Shown here: positions 1,086-58,871 of the stretch, piece after piece | How the letters are laid out: every line of letters begins with the position of its first letter | Numbering within the stretch: position 1 is the stretch's first letter | DNA from: Arenicola marina | Taxonomy: Eukaryota > Annelida > Polychaeta > Arenicolidae | Length of the DNA stretch: 64,000 bases | Assembly (NCBI GenBank): GCA_964019135.1 | Contig: OZ025260.1 | Coordinates: 32,544,254-32,608,253 of the forward strand | Reading direction: 5' to 3' | Made by a program: the position numbers and the translations under genes | Notes under the pieces: model-generated | The model's database searches: none | The model's input: the letters and a program-made list of their open reading frames with translations, nothing else | What the model was told of the DNA's origin: nothing

Positions 1086-1248
1086 CACGTGATGCAGATG
1101 TCGCCCACGCAGTACCAGTTCTACGAGCAGCTGCGGGAGAAACACCGGCAGCTGCAAGAGACCATCGTCAAGCAGCAGCAGGAGCTGCGGTGGATCTGGG
1201 ACCAACTCTTCCTCACCTGCCAGCTGGCCTCAGTCACGGACAGCCAAG
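1086..1248 (+). CDS. CLOCK: CLOCK/NPAS2-like penultimate coding exon (partial gene)
   Basis: The exon encodes 54 residues plus one base. Its core is a glutamine-rich helix with LQETIVKQQQELR, which resembles the segment of animal CLOCK and NPAS2 ([20 protein letters not shown] in vertebrates) needed for partner-dependent transactivation. CLOCK is the bHLH-PAS partner of BMAL/CYCLE in the circadian oscillator and acts in the nucleus. The exon opens after TTGCAG and closes at CCAAG before GTAAGC. It leaves one base, which joins the two bases at the start of the exon at 4711 to make an alanine codon, so the phases agree. The bHLH and PAS domains would lie upstream of the window. The last 50 or so bases of the exon are the first unit of the 70-bp array downstream. 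The assignment rests on this helix and the poly-Q tail; another Q-rich PAS protein is possible. Confidence 0.6.
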
Positions 1249-4200
1249 GTAAGCGTGACGCTGATCTGAGACCAACTCTCTCTCACCTGCCAGCTGGCCT
1301 CAGTCACGGACAGCCAAGGTAAGCGTGACGCTGATCTGGGACCAACTCTTCCTCACCTGCCAGCTGGCCTCAGTCACGGACAGCCAAGGTAAGCGTGGCG
1401 CTGATCTGGGACCAACTCTTCCTCACCTGCCAGCTGGCCTCAGTCACGGACAGCCAAGGTAAGCGTGACGCTGATCTGAGACCAACTCTCTCTCACCTGC
1501 CAGCTGGCCTCAGTCACGGACAGCCAAGGTAAGCGTGACGCTGATCTGGGACCAACTCTTCCTCACCTGCCAGCTGGCCTCAGTCACGGACAGCCAAGGT
1601 AAGCGTGACGCTGATCTGGGACCAACTCTTCCTCACCTGCCAGCAGGCCTCAGTCACGGACAGCCAAGGTAAGCGTGACGCTGATCTGGGACCAACTCTC
1701 TCTCACCTGCCAGCTGGCCTCAGTCACGGACAGCCAAGGTAAGCGTGACGCTGATCTGGGACCAACTCTTCCTCACCTGCCAGCTGGCCTCAGTCACGGA
1801 CAGCCAAGGTAAGCGTGACGCTGATCTGGGACCAACTCTTCCTCACCTGCCAACTGGCCTCAGTCACGGACAGCCAAGGTAAGCGTGACGCTGATCTGGC
1901 ACCAACTGTCTCTCACCTGCCAGCTGGCCTCAGTCACGGACAGCCAAGGTAAGCGTGACGCTGATCTGGGACCAACTCTCTCTCACCTGCCAGCTGGCCT
2001 CAGTCACGGACAGCCAAGGTAAGCGTGACGCTGATCTGGCACCAACTGTCTCTCACCTGCCAGCTGGCCTCAGTCACGGACAGCCAAGGTAAGCGTGACG
2101 CTGATCTGGGACCAACTCTCTCTCACCTGCCAGCTGGCCTCAGTCACGGACAGCCAAGGTAAGCGTGGCGCTGATCTGGGACCAACTCTTCCTCACCTGC
2201 CAACTGGCCTCAGTCACGGACAGCCAAGGTAAGCGTGGCGCTGATCTGGGACCAACTCTCTCTCACCTGCCAGCTGGCCTCAGTCACGGACAGCCAAGGT
2301 AAGCGTGGTGCTGATCTGGCACCAACTCTCTCTCACCTGCCAGCTGGCCTCAGTCACGGACAGCCAAGGTAAGCGTGACGCTGATCTGGGACCAACTCTC
2401 TCTCACCTGCCAGCTGGCCTCAGTCACGGACAGCCAAGGTAAGCGTGACGCTGATTTGGGACCAACTCTCTTTCACCTGCCAGCTGGCCTCAGTCACGGA
2501 CAGCCAAGGTAAGCGTGACGCTGATCTGGGACCAACTGTCTCTCACCTGCCAGCTGGCCTCAGTCACGGACAGCCAAGGTAAGCGTGACGCTGATCTGGG
2601 ACCAACTCTCTCTCACCTGCCAGCTGGCCTCAGTCACGGACAGCCAAGGTAAGCGTGGCGCTGATCTGGCACCAACTCTCTCTCACCTGCCAGCTGGCCT
2701 CAGTCACGGACAGCCAAGGTAAGCGTGGCGCTGATCTGGGACCAACTCTTCCTCACCTGCCAACTGGCCTCAGTCACGGACAGCCAAGGTAAGCGTGGCG
2801 CTGATCTGGGACCAACTCTCTCTCACCTGCCAGCTGGCCTCAGTCACGGACAGCCAAGGTAAGCGTGGTGCTGATCTGGCACCAACTCTCTCTCACCTGC
2901 CAGCTGGCCTCAGTCACGGACAGCCAAGGTAAGCGTGACGCTGATCTGGGACCAACTCTCTCTCACCTGCCAGCTGGCCTCAGTCACGGACAGCCAAGGT
3001 AAGCGTGACGCTGATTTGGGACCAACTCTCTTTCACCTGCCAGCTGGCCTCAGTCACGGACAGCCAAGGTAAGCGTGACGCTGATCTGGGACCAACTGTC
3101 TCTCACCTGCCAGCTGGCCTCAGTCACGGACAGCCAAGGTAAGCGTGACGCTGATCTGGGACCAACTCTCTCTCACCTGCCAGCTGGCCTCAGTCACGGA
3201 CAGCCAAGGTAAGCGTGGCGCTGATCTGGCACCAACTCTCTCTCACCTGCCAGCTGGCCTCAGTCACGGACAGCCAAGGTAAGCGTGACGCTGATCTGGG
3301 ACCAACTCTCTCTCACCTGCCAGCTGGCCTCAGTCACGGACAGCCAAAGTAAGCGTGACGCTGATCTGGGACCAACTCTCTCTCACCTGCCAGCTGGCCT
3401 CAGTCACGGACAGCCAAGGTAAGCGTGACGCTGATCTGGGACCAACTCTCTCTCACCTGCCAGCTGGCCGCAGTCACGGACAGCCAAGGTAAGCGTGACG
3501 CTGATCTGGGACCAACTCTCTCTCACCTGCCAGCTGGCCTCAGTCACGGACAGCCAAGGTAAGCGTGACGCTGATCTGGGACCAACTCTCTCTCACCTGC
3601 CAGCTGGCCTCAGTCACGGACAGCCAAGGTAAGCGTGACGCTGATCTGGGACCAACTCTCTCTCACCTGCCAGCTGGCCTCAGTCACGGACAGCCAAGGT
3701 AAGCGTGACGCTGATCTGGGACCAACTGTCTCTCACCTGCCAGCTGGCCTCAGTCACGGACAGCCAAGGTAAGCGTGGCGCTGATCTGGCACCAACTCTC
3801 TCTCACCTGCCAGCTGGCCTCAGTCACGGACAGCCAAGGTAAGCGTGACGCTGATCTGGGACCAACTCTCTCTCACCTGCCAGCAGGCCTCAGTCACGGA
3901 CAGCCAAGGTGAGCGTGACGCTGATCTGGGACCAACTGTCTCTCACCTTCCAGCAGGCCTCAGTCACGGACAGCCAAGGTAAGCGTGACGCTGATCTGGG
4001 ACCAACTGTCTCTCACCTTCCAGCAGGCCTCAGTCACGGACAGCCAAGGTGAGCGTGACGCTGATCTGGGACCAACTGTCTCTCACCTTCCAGCAGGCCT
4101 CAGTCACGGACAGCCAAGGTGAGCGTGACGCTGATCTGGGACCAATTCTTCCTCACCTTCCAGCAGGCGTCAGTCACGGACAGCCAAGGTAAGCGTGACG

Positions 4201-4499
4201 CTGATCTGGGACCAACTGTCTCTCACCTGCCAGCAGGCCTCAGTCACGGACAGCCAAGGTGAGCGTGACGCTGATCTGGGACCAACTGTCTCTCACCTTC
4301 CAGCAGGCCTCAGTCACGGACAGCCAAGGTAAGCGTGACGCTGATCTGGGACCAATTCTTCCTCACCTTCCAGCAGGCCTCAGTCACGGACAGCCAAGGT
4401 GAGCGTGACGCTGATCTGGGACCAACTCTCTCTCACCTTCCAGCAGGCCTCAGTCACGGACTGCCAAGGTAAGCGTGACGCTGATCTGGGACAAACTCT
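1193..4499 (+). repeat. 70-bp tandem array carrying splice signals
   Basis: The unit is exactly 70 bp. Donor positions run from 1249 to 4469 with 46 intervals and no net indel, giving 47 copies. Each unit contains CTGAT, a pyrimidine tract ending in CACCTGCCAG, the 25-nt block starting CTGGCCTCAGTCACGG and ending CAGCCAAG, and then GTAAGC. The first unit is the real 3' end of the exon at 1086-1248, so the array grew from the exon-intron junction. Variants include TTGG, CAACTGG, a weakened donor AAAGTAAG near 3347, and GTGAGC donors with a CAGCAG acceptor in the last third. Units 560 bp apart share variants, which shows block duplication. Confidence 0.95.
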
Positions 4500-4710
4500 G
4501 GGAGGAACTACGTGCCGCTTGTGAGGTTTTACATTAATACATTTGTTATATCCTCTCACTCTCAGCTTCATGGCTCAATAGTATTTTTGAGACCCGCATC
4601 GACGCACAATCGAATAAACTGTGGACTCTTGGATTGTTTAGTTTTACTATTACCTCTCACTATATCTTATTTTGTGTTTCGTTATGCATCGTTGTTGTGT
4701 TTCCTTGCAG
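4500..4710 (+). other. End of CLOCK-like intron and acceptor
   Basis: Non-repeated sequence between the array and the last exon. It ends in the strong acceptor TGTTTCCTTGCAG at 4698-4710. Confidence 0.7.
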
Positions 4711-5756
4711 CTCAGTTGACGGGGAGTCAGCTGGTTGTGACGTCACCCTCGGCAGTTTCCGGCGCCCCGTCGGCCACGCCGCTCTCGGGTCTGCCACAGC
4801 CGAACATGTTTCCGGGTCAGCTGCCCGACGGTGGAGATCACACAACTCAGGACCAGGGTCAAGGTCAATGTCAAGGTCAAGGTGAGATGCAGCCCCAGGT
4901 ACCTGACGTCAGCAGCGCGCCGCTGTCGCACCCGGCTAAAGCCAACCCCGGCAGGGGTTCACCCCCAAAGGGTGGCCGGGGGCGGCGGTTAGACGACCTG
5001 GGTCTGCGCTTGGCCATACCGTCGCTGGCCCCCCAGGGGATGCCGCTGGTCAGCCCCACCCCGCTGGGGCAGACCGCCCCGGCAGACTCGCCCGTCATGT
5101 CGCCCACGCGCCTGACACGCAGCCCCACGCAGTCGCACGTGGTGGACGGCGAGGCGCAAGCCCCCAGCCCCCGCCTCGCCCCAACCGCTGGTTACCCGTT
5201 GCTGGTCGCGATGGACGGTGGGGACGGGCGTGGCGGCCTGGGAGCGGGCCCGACGCCCTCCGCCGCCGCCGTCTGCCTGGAGACAGAACAGGCCGGCATC
5301 CGAGGGGTCAGTGATGACGTCACGCGGTCGGACCCGAATGCCTGGCTCACCCAGCCGCGGGCGGAGGAGGGTCTGGGTGGCCGGGGTGGCGGGGAGGGGG
5401 CGGACGGCATGGTTCAGGGAGAGGAGATGGGACCCCTGAGCAGTCCAGTCGGGATTGACCTCCTCAACCTGCGCTCCCTCATGCCCTCCGTCCTGACGGC
5501 CGGTGGGGGTGAGGGTGACGGGGGCGGGGACGTGGAGGTCTTGGGCCAAGCCCTGGCGATGGCGGAGCAACAGCCAACGCTTCAGTTAATGGCTCAGCCG
5601 CCAGTGGCGCTGCCTCTCATTGCGCAAAGCGACAACGACGCCGTCTATCTGTCATCCCCGGGAACTCAACAGCAGCAGCAGCTGCGTCAACAACAGTTGC
5701 ACCAACAGCAGCAGCAACAGTTGCAACTGCAACAACAACAGCGACGGCTTCATTGA
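4711..5756 (+). CDS. CLOCK: CLOCK/NPAS2-like terminal exon with poly-Q tail
   Basis: The open frame encodes about 348 residues after the acceptor at 4710 and stops with TGA at 5754-5756. The protein is low complexity: Ser/Pro/Gly-rich, with a Gln-Gly run (QGQGQCQGQGE, from 4855) and a C-terminal glutamine-rich tract of roughly 30 residues from about 5668. A Q-rich activation tail is typical of CLOCK and NPAS2. Strong GC and CpG richness sets it apart from its flanks. The frame continues upstream into the intron without a stop, but the acceptor and the phase match to 1248 support the start at 4711. The order poly-Q helix exon then poly-Q tail fits CLOCK; the middle of this exon has no family signature that I recognise. 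Confidence 0.65.
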
Positions 5757-22870: not shown

Positions 22871-25800
22871 ATGGCGCTCAGCAACATAACCGGCAAGGTT
22901 CAAACAGGTATGTGGGTTAATTCTTACATTTTAACATTTGGGCTCAATGATGCCAGAAGATAGAACTTAGCGGAACACCAATGTTCTGGACGGTGATATT
23001 GTATGCGATGGAAACTCTATTGAAATCAATTATTCCATATGAAATATCACAATGATAAGTACCACAATATATGATTGTAGCAGTGAGAGACTAGTGAATC
23101 AAACCATTCCTACTGGCCTCGGCTAGACGGATCACTGCAGAGAGAGTGGCCGGCTCGACATCTATCAGGGAGATCAACTCTCGCTGGGGACCAAACCGGC
23201 CCCACCGTTACACTTTACTTAATCAGGGTCAATGTCACAACACACATCTCGAGGTATAACTAGCTCGATAACTATAGCTATATTACTGCATGGTTTGTCT
23301 TTAAACGCCAGCGTCGCGGCAGCCACAATGGCGGCAAAACTGACCATGGCATGTTTGTTTTCGGTATTTAGTGCTATGTTTAATTGAACCTGGCCAGTTG
23401 GGCATGACGCTGACCCACGAGCACCTCAACTTGCGTGCAGACCCCCTACCCCCATCACCCTGCGACGAAGCCAAGGTTACCATGGAAATCACTCTGCAGA
23501 ACCTCGGCTGGATACGGCAACACCCGTAAGTAATCAGTAACTGCACGGTGACCCGGTCACAAGTCTAACATCATATATTTTGCATCTTAATTATTTCGTT
23601 CTACCTTGTACTGTATTAAAGAAACAGAAAGCCTATATGCTTTATATATCATGGTGCTAATTGACGTTTCTAATGTAAGGAACCAAATTACTCATTCATG
23701 CCTGTGTTCTTTATAATGCAAGTTATCATGAATACTTCCAAGCCCCCGTGAAAACGATTGGCTATATGCTTACATATTTGACATTTATAGGGTCTATTTA
23801 GCCTTGGAAAACGAATGTGCACAATATGATGACGGCACTTAGAGGTAGAGTGCACGCATGTTGCCTGCGGTCACTTTGAAAAATCGCGGGAAATCCTGTT
23901 GCCATGTCTAAGATACCCCCAACCGCCACAGCCCCGCGAGGCTGTTCATATATCGAACAAAAATCTGCATGGCATCTGCACGAACAGCATAAACGTAGAC
24001 TGTTGGACGGCAAGTTAAATATTTATATATGATAATGCCGCTTATGTTATTAATTAATGAAGGTACAGTCACAAATCCAACTTGTCGCTGCAAGGAACAG
24101 AAGACGCAATAATGTGGGAAATGTTGGATTTCAAGGTAACGTCATTCAGAGATATGTCGTCGCAATCTCGCGTTGTCTTGCGCGATCTTATGCTGTCATT
24201 TCTTGCGTAGGTCTATGCCATGGGTAATCCTGGGCGTAAGATAGAATTGAAATTTAAATCATGGGTGTTTTAGGTCAAATGTAGTTTGAAACAATCGAAA
24301 CCATGCCGCTCATGTGGGTGTTACGTGGATCTGTATCTCAGACTGCTTATAAGAACTGCGAGGCTATCAAATAGCATCGACATGGGGAATAAGTGATTGT
24401 CCCGACCTTTATATGCTTGTCAGTTGTTTGTGTGCTTCATATTCAGAAAAACGGCGGCTGTAGTGTCGTTGAAAACTCTACCCATGGTCTTCACCGGGAT
24501 ATTAAAGTTATTAAGGATATAGCTGAGAAATCTGGCGTGAACATCATAGCTGGCACAGGTTGGTGTTCGTTCAAAGCATCAGGCACCTTTGGATGTCCTG
24601 TCAACCCATGAATAGGACAAAATCTAATTATTGAGCTTACCTCCCTTTTTGGTTTGCGCAACGTGCAACCACACATAATTATTTATTAGTTAATGGCCAC
24701 GATTCGGCAATTGCTACAAGCATATTATAGCACTCATGCCCGCTCCCCCACCCAAACAAAATAACGATTAAGTTCAGTCTTTCTGGTCCGCTCTCGATTT
24801 GAAAGATCACAATTAATTATGCCTGAATATATATTTTTTTTAATTTACCCAGAAACATAAAATTATTTGTCATTGAAAATGTTAATACCGTCTATTTATA
24901 GAAAGACAATCGTTAGAAAATACGTCAATGCATATTTAACAGAAAGGTGCTGAATTTGTTCAGTATGTTGTACTGACTGTCACATGCCCTATACTCAGAT
25001 AATAACAGTTATAGGTCATGACGTTCAGGTTATTATGTTGATGTCACCCACCCGCCTGACATGGGGGCCCGAACGGAGAAGTCGCTCTGCCAGGAGATGA
25101 CGCAGGACATCGTGACAGGCGTGGGGGACACTGGGATAAAATGTGGAGCCATCGGAGAGATTGGCTGCTCTTGGCCGCTCACGGGTACAATAATTCATCC
25201 ATATTTGCTAAATATATACATAGCTAAATATCTTTGGAATTAATATTTACATTTGATATTACATAGTTATAATTGAGTCTTGAAGATAATGTTATCTGTA
25301 GTCTTTTTTTATTAGATGTATAAATCTATGATTGACTGTGCACTATAGGCTTACGTCTTGACTGTACATAGTTGCCGCAATATAGTGCATCCTAATTTTT
25401 TCATTTGATACTCATGGCATTTTATATAGTGATGCATAAATCGATTTAAAGACGGAGACTACCGTTACATCCAACAGTTAACGATCAGATCAATGTGTCA
25501 GGGATTTTACACCCATTAATAAAACCATTATTTTCAGCCAATGAAAGGAAAGTCCTTCGCGCTTCTGCCGCCGCCCAGCAGGCTCTGGGAGCTCCGGTCA
25601 TAATACACCCCGGTCGGTGTAGCAAGGCGCCAGAAGAAATAGTGCGTGTTCTGGCGGAGGCCGGCGGTGATGTGGCCAAGACCGTGATGTCCCATCTCGA
25701 CAGTAAGAAGTTTCGTCACATCCGACTCCAGCTCTCATGACAGGTGCACGTTGAACGAATGTTCATTAGATCCAGTCACGAACCAGTGTGTTCTGTTTTA

Positions 25801-27366
25801 CGTTCAGTGCCACTTAACAGCGATGCATAATTTCAGTTCATGAAGCGAAAAGTTACATGAAGTTGTAGTAATTAAAAGACGGTATATTTGCGAAGGTTTA
25901 CGATCATACCGAGTTCATTCGCTGCTAATTTAATTCATCTATGGATTATGATGACCAGGAATAACAGACACTTGGGCTAATGTGCATTGTTGACTTTTAG
26001 TATGTACCGACGTTAAATAAGGTATTATCTTATCTTATCCTGTTACAATTGAATGGCTTTTCCGCGGTAATTATCGTCTGAGTCTGATTGGCATTTCAGG
26101 GTCTCTCCACACTGACGCCGACATCTTGGAGTTTGCCGAACTCGGCACATACTGCGAGTACGACTTTTTCGGCATTGAAGTCTCCCACTATCAGTTCCAA
26201 TCTGCCGACGTCATCGACATCCCGAACGATGCCGAGAAGATCCGCAGAGTTCGGTGTCTGATTGACAACGGGTTCCAGGAGAGAGTCCTCCTGGCCCACG
26301 ATATACACAGCAAGCACCGTCTGGTGAGTCAAACGGGGAGACGTAGCCACCGTATTCATCAACCACACTCAGGCTGTGACGCCAATAGACTTCCGCTATT
26401 TTTTTATTTATCGAGCGATTATTGCGTTCAAACTAAATAAAAGTATTCACCCACGAGGTCGATTTTCTGAAGTAAGAATGTGATAAAATCAGATTGAATA
26501 TGATTTCTGGATCATGAGTACCACGACAACGAGCTGGAGAGGATAAGTGGCAATTAAATGCACGTTTACGTGGTGATTATAAATACGGCCCCTGTACTTA
26601 ATTGATTGCCTGTTATACAAGCCGACGTGGATGACTAATAACGATGTGAATGACTGGCGTAACCATGTAGTAAACGTCCACAATAATCTCGCATCAAACA
26701 TATAAGCCAAGGGCGAAGCCAAGGTTTGGAAACAAAAAAGGGAAGAGGCTTTGAGGGGAGGGGAGGGGACGAATGTCGGTAGGGCGAGGTCTCCGAAGTA
26801 TTCCAGTGTTATAATGATATAATGTCTAACGATATAATGATATAATGTCTAACGATATAATGTCTAACGATATAATGTCTAACAATATAATGATATAATG
26901 TCTAACGATATAATGTCTAACGATATAATGATATAACGTCTAACGATATAATGATATAATGTCTAACGATACAATTAAAATACTGGTAGACAACGTAGTA
27001 CAATTCTACTGAATTAAAGCTGGCTATCTTGGTCTAAACTTTCTTGTATAATGCACGTCGTTAGCCGCTTCCAGAACTTAAACAGCCATATATTGATATA
27101 CTGTAAGCTTAATTATGCGTAAGGCAAAGCGCATGCATGGTATTTATGTACGCTTTTTAATGAGAAACATACTAATCTAATGAATTTGTTCGACTAGATA
27201 CCTTTGTAGCAAAAGAAAAGATCTGTTTCAGACTAAGTATGGAGGCCATGGATTCAGCCACATTCTCCAGAACGTCGTCCCGAAAATGCGGGAGCGGGGC
27301 ATCAGCCAATCAGCGATAGACGGGATCCTGGTGGACAACCCCCGACACTGGCTCACCTTCAAGTAG
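22871..27366 (+). CDS. PTER: PTER, phosphotriesterase-related amidohydrolase (complete, 8 exons)
   Basis: Coding exons: 22871-22907, 23372-23525, 24069-24135, 24447-24558, 25029-25184, 25538-25702, 26100-26323 and 27232-27366. All introns are GT/AG and all phases close, giving 1050 nt, or 349 aa, the usual vertebrate PTER length. The family is an amidohydrolase TIM barrel with two metals. The metal ligands are in place: HxH at 28/30 (LTHEHL), Glu at about 167 (IGEIGCSW), His199 (VIIHPG), His228 (MSHLD) and Asp298 (LAHDIH). As in other PTERs, Glu stands where bacterial phosphotriesterase has carbamylated Lys. The C-terminus [12 protein letters not shown] is characteristic. Mammalian PTER has been reported to hydrolyse N-acetyltaurine; the same activity here is inferred. 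No signal peptide is seen, so it is probably cytosolic. The start is chosen because [12 protein letters not shown] aligns with the family N-terminus. Confidence 0.96.
26812..26970. repeat. AT-rich 15-bp tandem array in PTER intron 7
   Basis: Units of GATATAATGTCTAAC alternate with a shortened GATATAAT. It lies between the exons ending at 26323 and starting at 27232. Confidence 0.9.
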
Positions 27367-39900: not shown

Positions 39901-42900
39901 GGGTGGGCGGGATGGGCATGGGTGCAGGCACTGACTGATGCTGACAAAGAGACAGAATGAGAGAAGGCAAATATTGGGAGAGATGAAAAGACAGAACGGT
40001 GGATGGAGCGATGCACCGGTACTAAGTACAGCGAGACTCACCCCTACCACCCCGACCCCCACATCCCAGCCCTGAACCCCGGAGGATGCAGTAGGTACGA
40101 GGAGGAAGTGAATGGGGGTGGGCAGATTGGGGGGGGGGGAGGTGGGGGCAACAGCGTTGCATCCAGCATTACAAAAGCAGAATAATGGATGGATCGGTGT
40201 CTTAGGCCACATTTGTGCACAAGTGGGACAAAGTTCAGACGCTTTTAGCTGGATGGTTTAGATATACTTTTGACACATAGTGAAAAAATCCCCACCCCCC
40301 CACCCTCCTAGTTGATGAAACAGCGTGATTTCCCCCCCGTAAGCTCTAGTATTGCCGAGCCTAGCCACGCAACCTCAAAGGCTCGTTGCTTGNNNNNNNN
40401 NNNNNNNNNNNNNNNNNNNNNNNNNNNNNNNNNNNNNNNNNNNNNNNNNNNNNNNNNNNNNNNNNNNNNNNNNNNNNNNNNNNNNNNNNNNNNNNNNNNN
40501 NNNNNNNNNNNNNNNNNNNNNNNNNNNNNNNNNNNNNNNNNNNNNNNNNNNNNNNNNNNNNNNNNNNNNNNNNNNNNNNNNNNNNNNNNNNNTCGCATGA
40601 CAATTCGACGAGAATGACTGGGAAACAAAGTAAAGAAGCATTATTTATAGACCTTTAAGGACGTACAATGAATAATTACAAGTTTTAGGCCAATCTTGTG
40701 CCCCCCGGGGCCAAGCCGGATCGGGGAGAAGGAGGCTCGAACCCGCAACTGGTTAGCTACAAGTTACGAGAGTCTCCTACTTCGCGGCCATGGTGAGTCC
40801 CCAGTGATCACCCGTCAGAGGTCTCCCCCACACCTGGGGGGGGGGGGGGGGGGTAGCCATGTCGCGTGTCGATTTTAAGAAAAGGTCCATGTCGCGTGTC
40901 GATTTTAAGAAAAGTTCCATGTCGCGTGTCGCTAAGTCTTATGTCGCATGTCGATTCTAAGACAACCCCAATGTCGCGTTGTCGATTTTAAAAATCGCCG
41001 TGTCGCCGTGTCGAAAAAGCCCCTCTGGGGCCCTACACCTCCTGTCTGCCCCAGACCTCCGCTAGGTCTCCCCCAGGCCTCTTCAAGTCTCCCCGAATCC
41101 TTCTCCTGGGTCTGCCCCAGGTCCCCATCCAGGTCTTCTCCAATCCTCCCCTAGGTCTCCCCCAGGCCTTCCCCCGGGTCTGCCCCAGGTCTTCCCCAGG
41201 CCTCTCCAAGTCTTCCCAATCCTCCCCTAGGTATCCCCGAGGCCTTCCCCCGGGTCCGCCCCAGACCTCCCCTAAGTCTCCCCCAGACCTCCCCCAGGTC
41301 CCTCAAAGTCTTCCCCAATCCTCCCCTAGGTTTCCCCAGACCTCCCCCAGGTCTCTCAAAGTCTCCCCCAATCCTCCCCTAGGTTTCCCCCGGACCTCCC
41401 CCAGGTCTCCCCCCGACCTCCCCCAGGTCTCCCCCGGACCTCCCCCAGGTCTCCCCCCGACCTCCGCCAGGTCTCCCCCGGACCTCCGCCAGGTCTCCCC
41501 ACAGGTGTTCCCCAGGCCTCCCCAATTCTCCCCCAGGCTTCTCCCCAGGCGGCTAACGGGTCATAGCCCTCCACCGGGCCGCAGCGGGTAGCCGACCGCC
41601 AGCGTGCTCGCACCTATACCGATCGACGGAGGTCATGAACTCTACTTGCCCCCCACCCCACCCCGCCCCGCCCCACCCCACCCCCTCCGCCGTCCCCAGT
41701 CAGTCTCTATCCCTGACTTTGTCTTTGTCTCCGCTCCGTAATTTGCCCGACACGGCACGGCAGCCCCGGGGGCCTGTGTCCCCTACATGCTCCCCTCGTC
41801 CCACCTGCGACCCCTCCCGGCCCCGCTGTGACCCCCCGCGGGAGTCATCCCCTGGTCATGCCAGAGTCACCGGAGGGTCGAGATGAGGGGAGGGAGAGGC
41901 GGGAGGTTGTGACCCCGCGGCCCTTATGTGCACTTCATTGAACTCTCCTCTCAGTTACCCCCCCCCCCCCCCCACCACCACACACCGCTGACGGTACAAT
42001 ATAAACCGATAATAAAATTAAAGCTAGCTTGGCGATGAAATTAATAGCTCTCATTAGGCCTTCCCATAGCACATGTTTTCCCCGCTTCCACACCTCGCAC
42101 TAGTCATTTCGAATGCACTTTTATGATTTTTGTTCATATGCATTTTGGGGAAAACTATCGAGTTGTAGTGAAATTGTTCGCAAGATTCTGAACGACTCGC
42201 GTACCATTTTGGCAATTTTGTTTTTAAGGCGCTTTCGCTGGGCCGATATCTCCCAATGGCAAAAGGAAATTACACCCAACTTTCGCGCTTGCTACGCCAT
42301 TTGAAGAAACTGTAATCAAGGTTTCGCTCATTTAAAGGTTGTTACAACGGTCGCTTTAACTTCACCAGTGGGTGGGGGGGGTGGGCGGGGATTCTCAGAT
42401 AATATTTCGTCATAGAATGACTCAAAACAAATTAATGAAAGTTGAGAAAGTGTCAACCAGAAATATATTTTACATTCTACATTGTTTATGGCCTACATTG
42501 TTTCAACGGGAAGGCCAAGATGGACGGACGAAGGGATGAGTTCGCGGGATGTGGAGGAGGGTTATGATTCAGGTGCTGAGACCCGGAGCGGTGTGTTGGG
42601 GGTTGGGGCGGGTGTGGATAGCTGTATAGATAGGCGCTGCTCTTGAACAGGAGGCGGGGGCGAAGTAAAGATGGGGTGGGTGGGTGGGAGAGTGGTAGGA
42701 CCGAGCGTGTCTGGTCTGCACTCAAGATCGGAAATATGGAAACAGTCGAAGAGTCGCTGTGAGGTGTGACTGTGGGGCGCAGTCGGCGGGGAGGAGGGAG
42801 GTGGGGGGGGGGGACATTTGTGGCGAGGGGAGGGAGAAGTGAGTGACAGATGGAAGGACAAATAATATCGCGACTAATAATGCAACTAAGATTGGTAATA

Positions 42901-48900: not shown

Positions 48901-51900
48901 CATAACTCATCAACTTGTTTATTAAATACAAAGGTACGTAAGCCCCATGCAGGGACTACAGTGTATTGTAGTACGAGGACTGACCTTTCTTCGTAACAAC
49001 GGACCTTTCTTCTTAACGACTGACCTTTTTTCTTATCAACAACTGACCTTTGTTCTAAACGACTGACATTTTCTTCGAAACGACCACTGACCTTTCTTAT
49101 TAACGACCACTGACCTTTCTTCTAAACGACCTCTGACCTTTCTTATTAACGACAACTGTCCTTTCTTATTAACGACCTGACCTTTCTTCTTTACAACCAC
49201 TGACCGTTCTTCTTAACGACCTCTGCCCTATCTTATTAACGACCACTGACCTTTTCTTATTAACGGCCACTGACCTTTTCTTATTAACGACCACTGACCT
49301 TTTCTTATTAACGACCACTGACCTTTTCTTATTAACGACCACTGACCTTTCTGATTAACGACCAATGACCTTTCTGATTAACGACCACTGACTTTTTCTT
49401 ATTAACGACCACTGACCTTTTCTTATAGACGACCACTGACCTTTCTTCTTAACGACCTCTGACCTATCTTATTAACGACCACTGACCTTTTCTTATTAAC
49501 GACCACTGACTTTTGCTTATTAACGACCACTGAGCTTTCTTCTTAACGACCCCTGTACTTTCTTATGAACGACCACTGACCTTTCTTATTAACGACCACT
49601 GACCTTTCTTTTTAACGACCAATGACCTTTCTTATTAACGACCACTGACCTTTCTGATTAACGACCAATGACCTTTCTGATTAACGACCACTGACCTTTC
49701 TTATTAACGACCACTGACCTTTCTTAATAACGACCACTGACCTTTCTTCTTACCGACCACTGACCTTTCTTATTAACGACCACTGACCTTTCTTCTTAAC
49801 GACCACTGACCTTTCTTATTAACGATCAATGACCTTTCTTATTAACGACCACTGACCTTTTCTTAACCACTGACCTTTTCTTATTAACGACCATTGACCT
49901 TTCTTCTTAACGACCACTGACCTTTCTTATTAACGACCAATGACCTTTCTTATTAACGACCACTGATCTTTCTTATTAACGACCACTGACCTTTCTTATT
50001 CACGACCACTGACCTTTCTTATTAACGACCACTGACCTTTCTTATTAATGACAACTGACCTTTCCTCTTAACGACCATTGACTTTTCTTATTAACGACCA
50101 CTGACCTTCCTTAATAACGACCATTGACCTTTCTTATTAACGACCACTGACTATTCTTATTAATGACCACTGACCTTTCTGATTAACGACCAGACCTTTC
50201 TTAATAATGACCACTGACCTTTCTTCTTAATGACCACTGACCTTTCTGATTAACGACCAGACCTTTCTTAATAATGACCACTGACCTTTCTTCTTAACGA
50301 TCATTGACCTTTCTTATTAACGGCCACTGACCTTTCTTATTAATGACCACTGACCTTTCTTCTGAACGACCATTGACCTTTCTTACTAACGACCACTGAC
50401 CTTTCTTATTAACGACCACTGACCTTTCTTATTAACGACCACTGACCTTTCTTATTAATGACCACTGACCTTTCTTCTTAACGACCATTGACCTTTCTTA
50501 TTAACGACCATTGACCTTTCTTATTAACGACCACTGACCTTTCTTATTAATGACCACTGACCTTTCTTCTTAACGACCACTGATCTTTCTTATTAACGAC
50601 CACTGACCTTTCTTATTAACGACCACTGACCTTTTCTTATTAACGACCACTGACCTTTCTTATTAATGACCACTGACCTTTCTGATTAACGACCAGACCT
50701 TTCTTAATAATGACCACTGACCTTTCTTCGTAATGACCACTGACCTTTCTGATTAACGACCAGACCTTTCTTAATAATGACCACTGACCTTTCTTCTTAA
50801 CGATCATTGACCTTTCTTATTAACGGCCACTGACCTTTCTTATTAATGACCACTGACCTTTCTTCTGAACGACCATTGACCTTTCTTACTAACGACCACT
50901 GACCTTTCTTATTAACGACCACTGACCTTTCTTATTAACGACCACTGACCTTTCTTATTAACGACCACTGACCTTTCTTATTAACGACCACTGACCTTTC
51001 TTCTTAACGACCACTGATTTACGACCACTGACCTTTTTTATTAATGACCACTGACCTTTCTTCTTAACGACCATTGACCTTTCTTATTAACGACCACTGA
51101 CCTTTCTTATCAACGGCCATTGACTTTTCTTATTAAGGACCACTGACCTTTCTTATTAGGGACCACTGACCTTTCTTACTAACGACCACTAACCTTTCTT
51201 ATTAACGACCACTGACCTTTCTTATTAATGACCACTGACCTTTCTTCTTAACGATCATTGACCTTTCTTTTTAACGACCAATGACCTTTCTTATTAACGA
51301 CCACTGACCTTTCTGATTAACGACCAGACCTTTCTTAATAATGACCACTGACCTTTCTTCTTAACGATCATTGACCTTTCTTATTAACGGCCACTGACCT
51401 TTCTTATTAATGACCACTGACCTTTCTTCTGAACGACCATTGACCTTTCTTAGTAACGACCACTGACCTTTCTTATTAACGACCACTGACCTTTCTTATT
51501 AACGACCACTGACCTTTCTTATTAACGACCACTGACCTTTCTTCTTAACGACCACTGATTTACGACCACTGACCTTTTTTATTAATGACCACTGACCTTT
51601 CTTCTTAACGACCATTGACCTTTCTTATTAACGACCACTGACCTTTCTTATCAACGGCCATTGACTTTTCTTATTAAGGACCACTGACCTTTCTTATTAA
51701 GGACCACTGACCTTTCTTACTAACGACCACTAACCTTTCTTATTAACGACCACTGACCTTTCTTATTAATGACCACTGACCTTTCTTCTTAACGATCATT
51801 GACCTTTCTTTTTAACGACCAATGACCTTTCTTATTAACGACCACTGACCTTTCTGATTAACGACCAGACCTTTCTTAATAATGACCACTGACCTTTCTT

Positions 51901-54900
51901 CTTAACGATCATTGACCTTTCTTATTAACGGCCACTGACCTTTCTTATTAATGACCACTGACCTTTCTTCTGAACGACCATTGACCTTTCTTACTAACGA
52001 CCACTGACCTTTCTTATTAACGACCATTGACCTTTCTTACTAACGACCACTGACCTTTCTTATAGACGACCACTGACCTTTCTTCTTAACGACCTCTGAC
52101 CTATCTTATTAACGACCACTGACCTTTTCTTATTAACGACCACTGACTTTTGCTTATTAACGACCACTGAGCTTTCTTCTTAACGACCCCTGTACTTTCT
52201 TATGAACGACCACTGACCTTTCTTATTAACGACCACTGACCTTTCTTTTTAACGACCAATGACCTTTCTTATTAACGACCACTGACCTTTCTGATTAACG
52301 ACCAATGACCTTTCTGATTAACGACCACTGACCTTTCTTATTAACGACCACTGACCTTTCTTAATAACGACCACTGACCTTTCTTCTTACCGACCACTGA
52401 CCTTTCTTATTAACGACCACTGACCTTTCTTCTTAACGACCACTGACCTTTCTTATTAACGATCAATGACCTTTCTTATTAACGACCACTGACCTTTTCT
52501 TAACCACTGACCTTTTCTTATTAACGACCATTGACCTTTCTTCTTAACGACCACTGACCTTTCTTATTAACGACCAATGACTTTTCTTATTAACGACCAC
52601 TGATCTTTCTTACTAACGACCACTGACCTTTCTTATTCACGACCACTGACCTTTCTTATTAACGACCACTGACCTTTCTTATTAATGACAACTGACCTTT
52701 CCTCTTAACGACCATTGACTTTTCTTATTAACGACCACTGACCTTCCTTAATAACGACCATTGACCTTTCTTATTAACGACCACTGACCTTTCTTATTAA
52801 TGACCACTGACCTTTCTGATTAACGACCAGACCTTTCTTAATAATGACCACTGACCTTTCTTCTTAACGATCATTGACCTTTCTTATTAACGGCCACTGA
52901 CCTTTCTTATTAATGACCACTGACCTTTCTTCTGAACGACCATTGACCTTTCTTACTAACGACCACTGACCTTTCTTATTAACGACCACTGACCTTTCTT
53001 ATTAACGACCACTGACCTTTCTTATTAATGACCACTGACCTTTCTTCTTAACGACCATTGACCTTTCTTATTAACGACCACTGACCTTTCTTATTAATGA
53101 CCACTGACCTTTCTTCTTAACGACCACTGATCTTTCTTATTAACGACCACTGACTTTTCTTATTAACGACCACTGACCTTTTCTTATTAACGACCACTGA
53201 CCTTTCTTATTAATGACCACTGACCTTTCTGATTAACGACCAGACCTTTCTTAATAATGACCACTGACCTTTCTTCTTAATGACCACTGACCTTTCTGAT
53301 TAACGACCAGACCTTTCTTAATAATGACCACTGACCTTTCTTCTTAACGATCATTGACCTTTCTTATTAACGGCCACTGACCTTTCTTATTAATGACCAC
53401 TGACCTTTCTTCTGAACGACCATTGACCTTTCTTACTAACGACCACTGACCTTTCTTATTAACGACCACTGACCTTTCTTATTAACGACCACTGACCTTT
53501 CTTATTAACGACCACTGACCTTTCTTATTAACGACCACTGACCTTTCTTCTTAACGACCACTGATTTACGACCACTGACCTTTTTTATTAATGACCACTG
53601 ACCTTTCTTCTTAACGACCATTGACCTTTCTTATTAACGACCACTGACCTTTCTTATCAACGGCCATTGACTTTTCTTATTAAGGACCACTGACCTTTCT
53701 TATTAAGGACCACTGACCTTTCTTACTAACGACCACTAACTTTTCTTATTAATGACCACTGACCTTTCTTATTAATGACCACTGACCTTTCTTCTTAACG
53801 ATCATTGACCTTTCTTTTTAACGACCAATGACCTTTCTTATTAACGACCACTGACCTTTCTGATTAACGACCAGACCTTTCTTAATAATGACCACTGACC
53901 TTTCTTCTTAACGATCATTGACCTTTCTTATTAACGGCCACTGACCTTTCTTATTAATGACCACTGACCTTTCTTCTGAACGACCATTGACCTTTCTTAG
54001 TAACGACCACTGACCTTTCTTATTAACGACCACTGACCTTTCTTATTAACGACCACTGACCTTTCTTATTAACGACCACTGACCTTTCTTCTTAACGACC
54101 ACTGATTTACGACCACTGACCTTTTTTATTAATGACCACTGACCTTTCTTCTTAACGACCATTGACCTTTCTTATTAACGACCACTGACCTTTCTTATCA
54201 ACGGCCATTGACTTTTCTTATTAAGGACCACTGACCTTTCTTATTAAGGACCACTGACCTTTCTTACTAACGACCACTAACCTTTCTTATTAACGACCAC
54301 TGACCTTTCTTATTAATGACCACTGACCTTTCTTCTTAACGATCATTGACCTTTCTTTTTAACGACCAATGACCTTTCTTATTAACGACCACTGACCTTT
54401 CTGATTAACGACCAGACCTTTCTTAATAATGACCACTGACCTTTCTTCTTAACGATCATTGACCTTTCTTATTAACGGCCACTGACCTTTCTTATTAATG
54501 ACCACTGACCTTTCTTCTGAACGACCATTGACCTTTCTTACTAACGACCACTGACCTTTCTTATTAACGACCATTGACCTTTCTTACTAACGACCACTGA
54601 CCTTTCTTATTAACGACCACTGACCTTTCTTCTTAACGACCACTGATTTACGACCACTGACTTTTTTTATTAATGACCACTGACCTTTCTTCTTAACTAC
54701 CATTGACCTTTCTTATTAACGACCACTGACCTTTCTTATTAACGGCCATTGACTTTTCTTATTAACGACCACTGACCTTTCTTATTAATGACCACTGACC
54801 TTTCTTATTAAGGACCACTGACCTTTCTTACTAACGACCACTAACCTTTCTTATTAACGACCACTGACCTTTCTTATTAATGACCACTGACCTTTCTTCT

Positions 54901-57900
54901 TAACGATCATTGACCTTTCTTTTTAACGACCAATGACCTTTCTTATTAACGACCACTGACCTTTCTGATTAACGACCAGACCTTTCTTAATAATGACCAC
55001 TGACCTTTCTTCTTAATGACCACTGACCTTTCTGATTAACGACCAGACCTTTCTTAATAATGACCACTGACCTTTCTTCTTAACGATCATTGACCTTTCT
55101 TATTAACGGCTACTGACCTTTCTTATTAATGACCACTGACCTTTCTTCTGAACGACCATTGACCTTTCTTACTAACGACCACTGACCTTTCTTATTAACG
55201 ACCATTGACCTTTCTTACTAACGACCACTGACCTTTCTTATTAACGACCACTGACCTTTCTTCTTAACGACCACTGATTTACGACCACTGACCTTTTTTA
55301 TTAATGACCACTGACCTTTCTTCTTAACGACCATTGACCTTTCTTATTAACGACCACTGACCTTTCTTATTAACGCCCACTGACCTTTCTTATTAACGAC
55401 CACTGACCTTTCTTATTAACGACCACTGACCTTTTCTTATTAACGACCACTGACCTTTCTTACTAACGACCACTAACCTTTCTTATTAACGACCACTGAC
55501 CTTTCTTATTAACGACCACTGACCTTTCTTATTAATGACCACTGACCTTTCTTCTTAACGACCAATGACCTTTCCTATTAAGGACCACTGACCTTTCTTA
55601 TTAACGACCACTGACCTTTCCTATTAACGACCACTGACCTTTCCTAATAACGACCACTGACCTTTCCTTATTAACGACCAATGACCTTTTTTACTAACGA
55701 CCAATGACCTTTTTTATTAACGACCAATGACCTTTTTCATTAACGACCAATGACCTTTCCTATTAACGACCAATGACCTTTCCTATTAACGACCAATGAC
55801 TTTTTTTATTAACGACCAATGACCTTTCTCATTAACGACCAATGACCTTTCTTATTAACGACCAATGACCTTTCATATTAACGACCAATGACCTTTTTTA
55901 TTAACGACCAATGACCTTTCTTATTAACGACCACTGACCTTTCTTATTAACGACCACTGACCTTTCTTCTTAACGACCACTGATTTACGACCACTGACCT
56001 TTTTTATTAATGACCACTGACCTTTCTTCTTAACGACCATTGACCTTTCTTATTAACGACCACTGACCTTTCTTATCAACGGCCATTGACTTTTCTTATT
56101 AAGGACCACTGACCTTTCTTATTAAGGACCACTGACCTTTCTTACTAACGACCACTAACCTTTCTTATTAACGACCACTGACCTTTCTTATTAATGACCA
56201 CTGACCTTTCTTCTTAACGATCATTGACCTTTCTTTTTAACGACCAATGACCTTTCTTATTAACGACCACTGACCTTTCTGATTAACGACCAGACCTTTC
56301 TTAATAATGACCACTGACCTTTCTTCTTAACGATCATTGACCTTTCTTATTAACGGCCACTGACCTTTCTTATTAATGACCACTGACCTTTCTTCTGAAC
56401 GACCATTGACCTTTCTTAGTAACGACCACTGACCTTTCTTATTAACGACCACTGACCTTTCTTATTAACGACCACTGACCTTTCTTATTAACGACCACTG
56501 ACCTTTCTTCTTAACGACCACTGATTTACGACCACTGACCTTTTTTATTAATGACCACTGACCTTTCTTCTTAACGACCATTGACCTTTCTTATTAACGA
56601 CCACTGACCTTTCTTATCAACGGCCATTGACTTTTCTTATTAAGGACCACTGACCTTTCTTATTAAGGACCACTGACCTTTCTTACTAACGACCACTAAC
56701 CTTTCTTATTAACGACCACTGACCTTTCTTATTAAGGACCACTGACCTTTCTTCTTAACGATCATTGACCTTTCTTTTTAACGACCAATGACCTTTCTTA
56801 TTAACGACCACTGACCTTTCTGATTAACGACCAGACCTTTCTTAATAATGACCACTGACCTTTCTTCTTAACGATCATTGACCTTTCTTATTAACGGCCA
56901 CTGACCTTTCTTATTAATGACCACTGACCTTTCTTCTGAACGACCATTGACCTTTCTTACTAACGACCACTGACCTTTCTTATTAACGACCATTGACCTT
57001 TCTTACTAACGACCACTGACCTTTCTTATTAACGACCACTGACCTTTCTTCTTAACGACCACTGATTTACGACCACTGACTTTTTTTATTAATGACCACT
57101 GACCTTTCTTCTTAACTACCATTGACCTTTCTTATTAACGACCACTGACCTTTCTTATTAACGGCCATTGACTTTTCTTATTAACGACCACTGACCTTTC
57201 TTATTAATGACCACTGACCTTTCTTATTAAGGACCACTGACCTTTCTTACTAACGACCACTAACCTTTCTTATTAACGACCACTAACCTTTCTTATTAAT
57301 GACCACTGACCTTTCTTCTTAACGATCATTGACCTTTCTTTTTAACGACCAATGACCTTTCTTATTAACGACCACTGACCTTTCTGATTAACGACCAGAC
57401 CTTTCTTAATAATGACCACTGACCTTTCTTCTTAATGACCACTGACCTTTCTGATTAACGACCAGACCTTTCTTAATAATGACCAGACCTTTCTTCTTAA
57501 CGATCATTGACCTTTCTTATTAACGGCTACTGACCTTTCTTATTAATGACCACTGACCTTTCTTCTGAACGACCATTGACCTTTCTTACTAACGACCACT
57601 GACCTTTCTTATTAACGACCATTGACCTTTCTTACTAACGACCACTGACCTTTCTTATTAACGACCACTGACCTTTCTTCTTAACGACCACTGATTTACG
57701 ACCACTGACCTTTTTTATTAATGACCACTGACCTTTCTTCTTAACGACCATTGACCTTTCTTATTAACGACCACTGACCTTTCTTATTAACGCCCACTGA
57801 CCTTTCTTATTAACGACCACTGACCTTTCTTCTTAACGACCACTGACCTTTTCTTATTAACGACCACTGACCTTTCTTACTAACGACCACTAACCTTTCT

Positions 57901-58871
57901 TATTAACGACCACTGACCTTTCTTATTAACGACCACTGACCTTTCTTATTAATGACCACTGACCTTTCTTCTTAACGACCAATGACCTTTCCTATTAAGG
58001 ACCACTGACCTTTCTTATTAACGACCACTGACCTTTCCTATTAACGACCACTGACCTTTCCTAATAACGACCACTGACCTTTCCTTATTAACGACCAATG
58101 ACCTTTTTTACTAACGACCAATGACCTTTTTTATTAACGACCAATGACCTTTTTCATTAACGACCAATGACCTTTCCTATTAACGACCAATGACCTTTCC
58201 TATTAACGACCAATGACTTTTTTTATTAACGACCAATGACCTTTCTCATTAACGACCAATGACCTTTCTTATTAACGACCAATGACCTTTCATATTAACG
58301 ACCAATGACCTTTTTTATTAACGACCAATGACCTTTCTTATTAACGACCAATGACCTTTCATATTAACGACCAATGACCTTTTTTATTAACGACCAATGA
58401 CCTTTCCTATTAACGACCAATGACCTTTCCTATTAACGACCAATGACTTTTTTTATTAACGACCAATGACCTTTCTTATTAACGACCAATGACCTTTCTT
58501 TTTAACGACCAATGACCTTTCATATTAGCGACCAATGACCTTTTTTATTAACGACCAATGACCTTTCTTATTAACGACCAATGACCTTTCATATTAACGA
58601 CCAATGACCTTTTTTATTAACGACCAATGACCTTTCCTATTAACGACCACTGACCCTCCGTTTGACGCGCAGCCGTCGTTCGTACGGACAAATGGCACTT
58701 CTTCTCCCTAGGTGTGTGACTGACCTTTCTTCTGGATGACAATCCTGCCATCCTTGTTGGTGTTGGTGAGAGCCTGCAGGAAGCCCTCGATGTGCATGAG
58801 GGGGGAGGTGAAGGCCGCCCCCGGGCCGCCCGCTCCCTCGGCGTCCGGACCAGGATCCACAGCCACAGTGT
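33464..58871 (-). CDS. DDX11: DDX11/CHL1-type Fe-S DNA helicase, C-terminal 11 exons (partial)
   Basis: Exons on the minus strand, 5' to 3': 58871-58725, 48859-48747, 48305-48233, 47698-47595, 37593-37444, 36496-36428, 35943-35840, 35524-35440, 34813-34735, 34106-33952 and 33493-33464. All introns are GT/AG and the phases close to 368 codons plus a stop. The protein is an XPD-family superfamily 2 helicase that unwinds 5'-flapped and G-quadruplex DNA and supports sister-chromatid cohesion in the nucleus. Motifs: [39 protein letters not shown] (motif IV region), [18 protein letters not shown] (V) and [15 protein letters not shown] (VI). Walker A/B and the Fe-S cysteines lie upstream of the window. 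The residues match human DDX11 throughout, rather than FANCJ or RTEL1. The gene is stretched by two introns of nearly 10 kb full of repeats. Confidence 0.95.
33494..33951 (-). other. DDX11: DDX11 last intron with (TA)n tract
   Basis: AT-rich intron. A (TA)n run at about 33886-33931 lies 20 bp inside the donor of the exon at 33952-34106. Confidence 0.8.
33952..34106 (-). CDS. DDX11: DDX11 exon with motif VI end
   Basis: Encodes [20 protein letters not shown], then LPAWI and [10 protein letters not shown]. Starts with two bases (phase 1) and ends in phase 0. Confidence 0.95.
34107..34734 (-). other. DDX11: DDX11 intron with SINE fragments
   Basis: A tRNA-like minus-strand segment at about 34418-34500 has an A-box-like TGACTCAGTCTG and a B-box-like GGGTTCGCGCC. 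It does not form an acceptor stem. The stretch at 34600-34730 (GGATGAAACGTCCCC) resembles dispersed repeats at 45420 and 46400. Confidence 0.55.
34735..34813 (-). CDS. DDX11: DDX11 exon, [12 protein letters not shown]
   Basis: Encodes [15 protein letters not shown], the start of helicase motif VI. Ends in phase 1 before GTAAGTAC. Confidence 0.95.
34814..35439 (-). other. DDX11: DDX11 intron
   Basis: AT-rich; nothing recognised. Confidence 0.7.
35440..35524 (-). CDS. DDX11: DDX11 exon, [11 protein letters not shown]
   Basis: Encodes [20 protein letters not shown] and continues to NATM, matching human CVVMVGMPFPN. Donor GTAACC. Confidence 0.95.
35840..35943 (-). CDS. DDX11: DDX11 exon, helicase motif V
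   Basis: Encodes [20 protein letters not shown] and the following G and partial R codons; ends in phase 2. Acceptor GTTTCTAG. Confidence 0.96.
36180..36420. repeat. Minisatellite next to a DDX11 donor
   Basis: Irregular units of CCAGCTAAAGGGTTAATGA with GATCTGATGGACCCCA spacers, around 25-50 bp, with C-runs. It reaches to about 20 bp inside the donor of the exon at 36428-36496. Confidence 0.85.
36428..36496 (-). CDS. DDX11: DDX11 exon, [12 protein letters not shown]
   Basis: Encodes 23 residues beginning [15 protein letters not shown], matching human EPKSAHQVEQVL. Both ends are in phase 0; donor GTCAGAGC. Confidence 0.93.
36849..37080 (-). repeat. tRNA-derived SINE (reverse), in DDX11 intron
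   Basis: Shares the family tail (GGTTGGTTATTCAGGACGC on plus), body (GTAACCCCCTACTCTTTACG) and B box (GGGCTCGAACCACC) with the SINE at 63516-63770. The A-box head is incomplete. Confidence 0.8.
37423..37443. repeat. (TA)n tract forming the start of a DDX11 intron
   Basis: The donor on the minus strand reads GTATATATATAT, so the intron opens inside the microsatellite. Confidence 0.85.
37444..37593 (-). CDS. DDX11: DDX11 exon, motif IV region
   Basis: Encodes 50 residues, [20 protein letters not shown] then CFFPSYEY and VHAHWEKEG, in phase 0 at both ends. Acceptor TTGTATGCAG. Confidence 0.96.
37594..38980 (-). other. DDX11: DDX11 large intron, right-hand AT-rich part
   Basis: Contains a diverged tandem duplication: 38070-38195 is repeated at 38284-38430 (shared TTTAGAATATCA, TTTGCATCAATATATATAAA and CACCAGTTCAT). 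No nested gene. Confidence 0.65.
38981..40392. repeat. G-rich low-complexity block in DDX11 intron
   Basis: The plus strand has many runs of 4-13 G (39160-39260, 39345-39400, 39695-39720, 39850-39915, 40105-40145). GAGATGACTGTGTGTG is repeated. The long C-rich/proline-rich minus-strand frames are by-products of this composition, not genes. Confidence 0.75.
40393..40592. other. Assembly gap (200 N)
   Basis: Exactly 200 N, a conventional placeholder for a gap of unknown size, so distances across it are not reliable. Confidence 0.99.
40680..40800 (-). repeat. tRNA-like SINE fragment, second family
   Basis: On the minus strand it contains GTTGCGGGTTCGAGCCTCC (B box) preceded by TAGCTAACCA. It resembles the fragments at 45460-45625. 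Confidence 0.55.
40850..41000. repeat. 30-bp tandem array (CCATGTCGCGTGTCG)
   Basis: Four to five decaying units of CCATGTCGCGTGTCGATTTT followed by AAGAAAAGGT. Confidence 0.85.
41025..41570. repeat. C-rich/pyrimidine minisatellite
   Basis: Units built from CCTCCCCCAGGTCTCCCC and CCTCCCCTAGGT in 20-60 bp blocks. The minus-strand frame with [12 protein letters not shown] repeats is a translation of this array. Confidence 0.85.
41571..45140. other. DDX11: DDX11 intron, C/G-rich and AT-rich patches
   Basis: Simple-sequence patches: poly-C at 41958-41973 and 44764-44775, G runs at 42370-42390, 42800-42812 and 44645-44660, and GGGGCGGGGTCGGGGCC repeats at 44320-44395. Copies of a diverged dispersed unit (GATGGACGGACG, GGGATGAGTTC) occur near 42520 and 43900. 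No exon or RNA gene is supportable. Confidence 0.5.
45355..45625 (-). repeat. tRNA-like SINE, second family, partly doubled
   Basis: Two B-box segments on the minus strand (GTTGCGGGTTCAAACC near 45536-45552 and GTTGCGGGTTCACAACCCC near 45465-45483) follow tRNA-like heads. The tail (TTTATGCCACCTTTGTGCAC) is shared in diverged form with 40205 and 46350. Confidence 0.55.
45626..46792. other. DDX11: DDX11 intron, mostly unique
   Basis: AT-rich with a fragment of the second SINE family at about 46350-46455. Nothing else recognised. Confidence 0.5.
46793..47584. mobile_element. Non-autonomous TA-flanked DNA transposon, copy 2
   Basis: A 792-bp reverse-oriented copy of 11928-12722 with GGGCTGTACAGT at one end, ACTGTACAGCCC at the other, and TA on both sides. 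The two copies keep the same internal landmarks (CCGGTTGTTTGCCTTC, TGAGCAGGCAAGGACAATGG). It is inserted in DDX11 intron sequence ten bases from the exon ending at 47595. Confidence 0.85.
47595..47698 (-). CDS. DDX11: DDX11 exon, HVIP
   Basis: Encodes [20 protein letters not shown] and then [15 protein letters not shown], aligning with human [20 protein letters not shown]. It joins the previous exon in phase 1 and ends in phase 0. Donor GTGGGTAA is followed directly by the transposon. Confidence 0.95.
47990..48160. repeat. Doubled 75-80 bp unit in DDX11 intron
   Basis: TGCGGGGAACAAGGTT, TTTCTGTTACCTGGCTGGTT and CCGGCCAATCATGATG each occur twice in the same order. Confidence 0.85.
48233..48305 (-). 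CDS. DDX11: DDX11 exon, [10 protein letters not shown]
   Basis: Encodes [20 protein letters not shown] and EYSC plus one base, matching human VSDFREQL and EFSCG. Confidence 0.95.
48747..48859 (-). CDS. DDX11: DDX11 exon, [10 protein letters not shown]
   Basis: Encodes [20 protein letters not shown] then [10 protein letters not shown]; phase 1 start, phase 0 end, donor GTGAGTGG. A poly-C run lies just downstream on plus. Confidence 0.96.
48960..58660. repeat. 9.7-kb minisatellite, 23-bp unit, in DDX11 intron
   Basis: Roughly 420 copies of ATTAACGACCACTGACCTTT followed by CTT. Point variants (CAATGACC, CATTGACC, AATAATGACC, a 20-bp short unit GACCAGACC, a CTGATTTACGACC insertion) recur in blocks, showing layered duplication. 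On the DDX11 sense strand the unit reads AATAAGAAAGGTCAGTGG, which contains the 13-base junction AAGAAAGGTCAGT found at the end of the exon at 58725-58871. There are no coding frames. Confidence 0.97.
58725..58871 (-). CDS. DDX11: DDX11 exon, SPLMHIEGF (most 5' exon seen)
   Basis: Encodes 48 residues. A Gly/Ala-rich linker leads to [20 protein letters not shown] and GRIVIQKK, matching human [20 protein letters not shown]. Acceptor TCTCATTCCAG. The donor GTCAGTCAC is followed within 70 bp by the 23-bp array. Confidence 0.95.

Follow-up and report, generated by a model that had tools for sequence, protein, structure and literature searches.

The window (the whole 64,000-nucleotide stretch of DNA that was analysed, to which all coordinates refer) carries on its forward strand the end of a gene that is probably CLOCK. 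We identified a penultimate exon of 163 nt (1086..1248, + strand), open in the frame read and ending after the first base of a codon, which encodes a coiled coil like that of CLOCK exon 19. A terminal coding exon (4711..5756, + strand), preceded by the acceptor TTTCCTTGCAG, encodes a Q-rich C-terminus and closes with a TGA stop. With 1248 joined to 4711 the frame stays open for 402 codons, to the stop ending at 5756, and the intron so defined (1249..4710, + strand) would be 3,462 nt long and would hold the entire intronic part of the tandem array described below.

The assignment to CLOCK is based on an alignment of residues 11-43 of the exon peptide to residues 16-48 of the 51-residue CLOCK chain of PDB entry 5VJI (phmmer E-value of 0.11 against the whole PDB), which we take to be exactly CLOCK exon 19. 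This match is weak by itself, but the preliminary description of this DNA had named CLOCK beforehand, and the local score of the comparison was reached by none of 5000 shuffled peptides. Likeness between coiled coils in general is a caveat, as the same search ranked three 4D2 chains (designed helical bundles) above 5VJI and two hemerythrin chains below it. Protein searches for CLOCK relatives returned no match at an E-value of 0.001 among 7984 candidates scored (targets of 221-703 residues, a range that leaves out the longer CLOCK proteins), and none at an E-value of 1 among 12 candidates of a second search, in which longer CLOCK proteins also lay outside the length range. The bHLH-PAS domains expected upstream in a CLOCK gene would lie beyond the left edge of the window.

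Tandem Repeats Finder reports an array at 1193-4499: the period is 70, the copy number 47.2, and matches and indels amount to 96% and 0%. Unit-by-unit registration resolves it into 47 full, gap-free 70-bp units (1193..4482, + strand) and 17 bp of a 48th copy at the far edge (4483..4499, + strand), in agreement with the 47 in-register units of a preliminary description of this DNA. Unit 1 (1193-1262, + strand) consists of the last 56 nt of the exon (1193-1248) and the first 14 bases of the intron. Thus, the repeat unit spans the exon-intron border, which we place from the reading frame and the splice signals, and 46 further full copies follow unit 1. The earlier proposals that the first unit is the genuine exon end, that donor and acceptor motifs recur in register, that 45 nt separate neighbouring units and that the gene is a probable CLOCK all hold.

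Across the 47 full units 18 of the 70 positions are variable, and 24 unit types were distinguished. Each unit carries a 25-nt block, the 22-nt core of which occurs 47 times within three mismatches and was not found in 100 shuffles. In unit 2, for example, 1291..1318 (+ strand) holds an acceptor-like CAG followed by the 25-nt block at 1294-1318. The motif CTGAT runs across unit junctions, occupying positions 69-70 and 1-3 (all invariant), and its adenosine lies 29 nt upstream of the acceptor; exonic unit 1 lacks it because the two bases preceding 1193 are TG. Unit 1 is coding and is identical to intronic units 4, 6 and 9. If put in its place at the exon, 43 of the 46 intronic units would preserve both the frame and the border sequence AAG/GT. 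An Rfam search at gathering scores gave no matches.

The window also contains a complete PTER gene (N-acetyltaurine hydrolase, 351 residues; 22871-27366), modelled in eight exons with consistent phases. Its protein is at most 57% identical (Saccoglossus) to any of the 120 matches listed of 1614, and 54% identical to that of Branchiostoma belcheri. In a tree with 20 matches chosen from those 120, PTER was placed in no group. The 54% identity suggests that the host is probably outside Branchiostoma; a lancelet host is unlikely, although a paralogue could mislead here. The seven homology-based PTER introns (311-908 nt) served as a local yardstick for splice scores, all of which derive from a matrix built on vertebrate frequencies. 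On this matrix the PTER donors score 2.30-10.08 and the PTER acceptors -1.23 to 8.61.

A donor GT is present in all 47 units, within AAG/GT in 46 and AAA/GT in unit 31. The genuine donor, AAG/GTAAGC (intron bases 1249..1254, + strand), scores 11.19, which is the 99.9th percentile among 3154 GTs outside the array, and recurs every 70 bp: 41 of the 47 donors share its score, five GTGAGC donors score 10.63 and that of unit 31 scores 8.04. The acceptor-like AG is found in 44 of the 47 units, being replaced by CAA in units 10, 15 and 23. The splice signals earlier ascribed to every unit need correction here, those three units being without an acceptor AG. In the other 44 the acceptor scores range from 5.69 to 8.93, with a median of 6.79 (also the score in unit 2) at the 96th percentile of 2813 AGs; all exceed the score of the exon's own acceptor (5.39) and fall short of that of the terminal one at 4711 (9.36). 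All but one of the 47 array donors outscore all seven PTER donors, and all 44 array acceptors outscore five of the seven PTER acceptors. A further acceptor downstream of the array, at 4566, scores 8.8, and its use would shift the frame.

Each unit owes its donor to the exon border, and its acceptor-like stretch is coding in origin. The acceptor likeness is less telling, because comparable AGs are common and the motif is the exon's own coding sequence for LFLTCQ. We counted 79 AGs as good as the array acceptors on the + strand in the 47.6 kb outside 13 arrays (chosen from 57 Tandem Repeats Finder rows and set aside for background counts), or about 9% per 56 bp. Exons of 25 nt and introns of 45 nt are generally poorly recognised in splicing. 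The intron between adjoining units would be 45 nt, far below the seven PTER introns, and that from one unit to the next but one would be 115 nt. Splicing of a 45-nt intron is nevertheless conceivable, since human introns of 43 nt are reported to be spliced (PMC4463651).

Other splice-like signals were noted in the window. The minus strand of 1193-4499 has 45 donor-like sites scoring at least 9, since CTCACCTGCCAG reads as a donor-like sequence on the opposite strand. Built on a 23-bp unit, a 9.7-kb array (48979-58655) has 258 minus-strand donor-like sites scoring at least 7; repeats can therefore bear splice-like signals by chance. Upstream in the CLOCK gene, a 72-bp tandem repeat (17-231, 2.8 copies) lies among strong donors (GAG/GTAAGT at 9; CAG/GTAAGG at 105 and 177), and a possible 27-nt microexon (596-622) has an acceptor scoring 7.9 and the donor CAG/GTAAGC scoring 11.3. 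An AATAAA at 4613, between the array and the terminal exon, is a possible intronic poly(A) signal.

We computed the products expected from use of the array sites. Among donors 1-6 joined to the acceptor at 4711, the full open frame is obtained from donor 1 only. Donor 2 shifts the frame, which then ends after 135 codons. Donors 3-6 lead to a stop at codon 79, and later donors keep that stop. By the 50-55 nt rule for nonsense-mediated decay, the products of donors 3-6 are predicted to be degraded, since their stop lies at least 66 nt before the last junction. Inclusion of 25-nt cassettes shifts the frame by 1 for each: one cassette yields 120 codons with an altered tail, two yield a stop at 73, just inside the terminal exon, and three restore the frame (427 codons, with 25 extra residues). 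In every case computed, for 0-6 and for 46 cassettes, the stop falls in the terminal exon. Stray splicing at the array is probably low in level and mostly frame-breaking.

Variation among the 47 full units, from which the partial 48th copy was left out, gives no sign of constraint. Donor positions hold 2 distinct variants against 2.2 expected and acceptor positions 7 against 5.4, with no depletion in either, and the changes that the variants make to splice scores fall within the null (p of 0.35 and 0.61), although with 18 distinct variants all of these tests are weak. In the exon frame, 5 variants are synonymous and 9 are not (3.9 synonymous expected), which does not indicate coding constraint, and units 2 and 5 contain a stop codon when read in that frame. 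Stable hairpins that would hide donors or drive expansion were considered and rejected: four folds gave z of -0.08, 0.53, 0.05 and 0.99, none beyond shuffles. Hiding of donors by folding was likewise rejected, the median donor accessibility being at the 49th percentile of the array.

Units 15-21 (2173..2662, + strand) recur in the same order as units 23-29 at an offset of 560 bp (seven identical unit types in a run at lag 8), and this is likely a recent block duplication. Units 39-47 at the far end (3853..4482, + strand) are diverged, with 3.78 differences per unit versus 1.42 elsewhere (0 of 20000 permutations, for a split picked after viewing the units); some of them have better acceptors (TTCCAG) and GTGAGC donors. 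Homogenisation of units except at the cluster edge, a feature of mirage minisatellites (see below), is seen here in the diverged far edge and the repeated seven-unit run. The exon-side edge is not diverged, given the identity of unit 1 to units 4, 6 and 9. Either sequence is exchanged between the exon end and the array, or the exon-side part of the array is young. Overall the array looks neutral, with splice signals that are not spared, ordinary folding, an unconstrained frame, block duplication and a diverged far end.

We conclude that the array is very probably a mirage minisatellite, with the first donor joined to 4711 and the array leaving within one 3,462-nt intron. We propose that a segment straddling the exon-intron boundary (56 nt of exon and 14 nt of intron) was duplicated in tandem, and that unequal exchange or similar turnover would then have amplified it to 47 units. 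In normal pre-mRNA the first donor would be spliced to the acceptor at 4711 and the array removed within a single intron. We infer this pairing because it combines the shortest exon with an open frame, and later donors shift the frame or meet a stop. Since every unit resembles the exon at its end, adding or losing units in register would keep the exon end and its donor, so that array length could change with the gene unbroken. Later donors or 25-nt cassettes are probably used at a low, stray level. Removal of the array in splicing is most likely harmless, and some splice-site competition within it is plausible.

The preliminary description saw in the units a set of competing splice cassettes, with competing sites on each side of the terminal exon. 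The latter wording is loose, as the array lies only upstream of that exon. As for the cassettes, the splice signals are indeed inherited by the units, but variants are not depleted in them, the AG is lost in 3 of 47, one donor is weakened and the lancelet precedent described below points the other way. A working splicing regulator, in which copy number sets the shares of full-length, frame-shifted and truncated CLOCK, is on balance unlikely. It would draw on donors that score high in all 47 units but one and on acceptors above the exon's own in 44 (both on the vertebrate matrix), on the computed set of distinct CLOCK tails, with each 25-nt cassette shifting the frame by 1 and three restoring it, and on the fact that skipping at least one unit would leave introns of at least 115 nt. 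As precedents, two downstream repeat units of IFI6 are reported to be used as donors (PMC4526556), and TERT splicing reportedly responds to a 38-bp VNTR in an intron (PMC11830802). Weighing against a regulator are splice signals that are not spared among variants, the lack of the acceptor AG in three units, the poor recognition of such short exons and introns, the 311-908 nt of the PTER introns and the lancelet mirages, for which mRNA is reported as undisturbed (PMC3087553, PMC3902484). The comparison of splice scores with PTER works in the other direction, since on strength alone (vertebrate matrix) the array sites would be usable, which speaks against a mirage with undisturbed splicing. The lancelet cases compared for unit number (BflGb6 and PGBD5) also have only 3-6 units, and 46 extra donors may behave otherwise. 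A more specific version of regulation, in which the number of cassettes modulo 3 would define C-terminal classes (intact or lengthened, altered in the tail, or truncated just after the coiled coil) and length differences between individuals or cells would shift both their mixture and circadian timing, appears quite improbable. Its products would perhaps be stable, stops being in the terminal exon for the cases computed (0-6 and 46 cassettes).

It is very unlikely that the copy number is in part an assembly artefact and the true array shorter or longer. The assembly does have a scaffold gap (a run of N at about 40400-40600), the identical seven-unit runs at 15-21 and 23-29 could be a misassembly, and the draft version of one lancelet mirage was apparently assembled aberrantly, according to a supplement legend (PMC3087553). 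However, the ordered arrangement of the 24 unit types suggests that the greater part of the array was truly read, and the boundary duplication is independent of the exact number of copies. Stepwise removal, with each 70-nt repeat spliced from its GT to the next AAG/GT, in the manner of introns gained by AGGT duplication, or with the repeat serving as a ratchet point, receives next to no weight from us. Removal of whole units would leave the message unchanged, since AAG/GT is present in 46 of the 47, and the AGGT duplication model has been described (PMC4974935, PMC3443670). Against this, the AAG/GT acceptors score -1.14 (median of 46; 43rd percentile, vertebrate matrix), and such removal is not required of an intron that has a good terminal acceptor.

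If the mirage reading is correct, a boundary-spanning minisatellite is able to reach 47 units in a gene not expected to bear mis-splicing, and the locus provides a natural experiment on how the spliceosome chooses one donor among 47 near-identical ones. The exon end shares its sequence with a non-coding reservoir, three intronic units matching the exonic unit exactly. The array would also sit at the border whose donor mutation gave the classic mouse clock mutant. Since the host is probably not Branchiostoma, the mirage phenomenon may extend beyond that genus. We noticed no report of a CLOCK mirage in literature searches that had other aims, and do not take this as absence.

A minisatellite with multiple splice donors in IFI6 (6-16) was reportedly described by Turri in 1995. 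Its repeat units are reported to serve as splice donors (PMC4526556). Both arrays are minisatellites of donor-bearing units, but donor use is reported in IFI6, whereas here the donors are predicted only. In intron gain by AGGT duplication, a duplicated AGGT segment creates potential splice sites (PMC4974935, PMC3443670), and a 24-bp segment is noted to occur in several copies in fission yeast genes (PMC4974935). There an exonic segment becomes an intron, whereas here the duplicated segment already held the border and its copies are intronic. That model depends on a usable acceptor at the duplicated AG/GT, and here this site has the low score given above (-1.14, vertebrate matrix). In the mouse Clock-delta19 mutant, an A-to-T change in a splice donor is reported to cause skipping of exon 19 and removal of 51 residues (PMC1802832), the number also present in the 5VJI CLOCK chain. 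The array lies on the donor side of the corresponding exon. In Clock-delta19 a single base is changed and the skip keeps the frame; here, in contrast, an intact donor has been multiplied, and 163 nt, the length of the exon, is not divisible by 3.

The closest likeness is to the lancelet mirages, minisatellites across exon-intron boundaries known from Adh3 and the globins BflGb6 and BflGb9 (PMC3087553), and from TnC and PGBD5 (PMC3902484). The data there suggest undisturbed mRNA and length instability (PMC3087553, PMC3902484); the present window represents one haplotype. The unit there likewise spans the boundary, and AG and GT signals occur in many, not all, of the published repeats (here GT in 47 and AG in 44 of 47 units). 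Those compared for unit number are shorter: two haplotypes of BflGb6 have 6 and 3 units and PGBD5 has an imperfect triplication, versus 47 units here. The present array lies in a probable CLOCK gene, and its splicing is predicted from DNA sequence. Thus, boundary-spanning minisatellites have already been described in lancelets, and what would distinguish this one is its size (47 units), its place and a host that is probably outside Branchiostoma.
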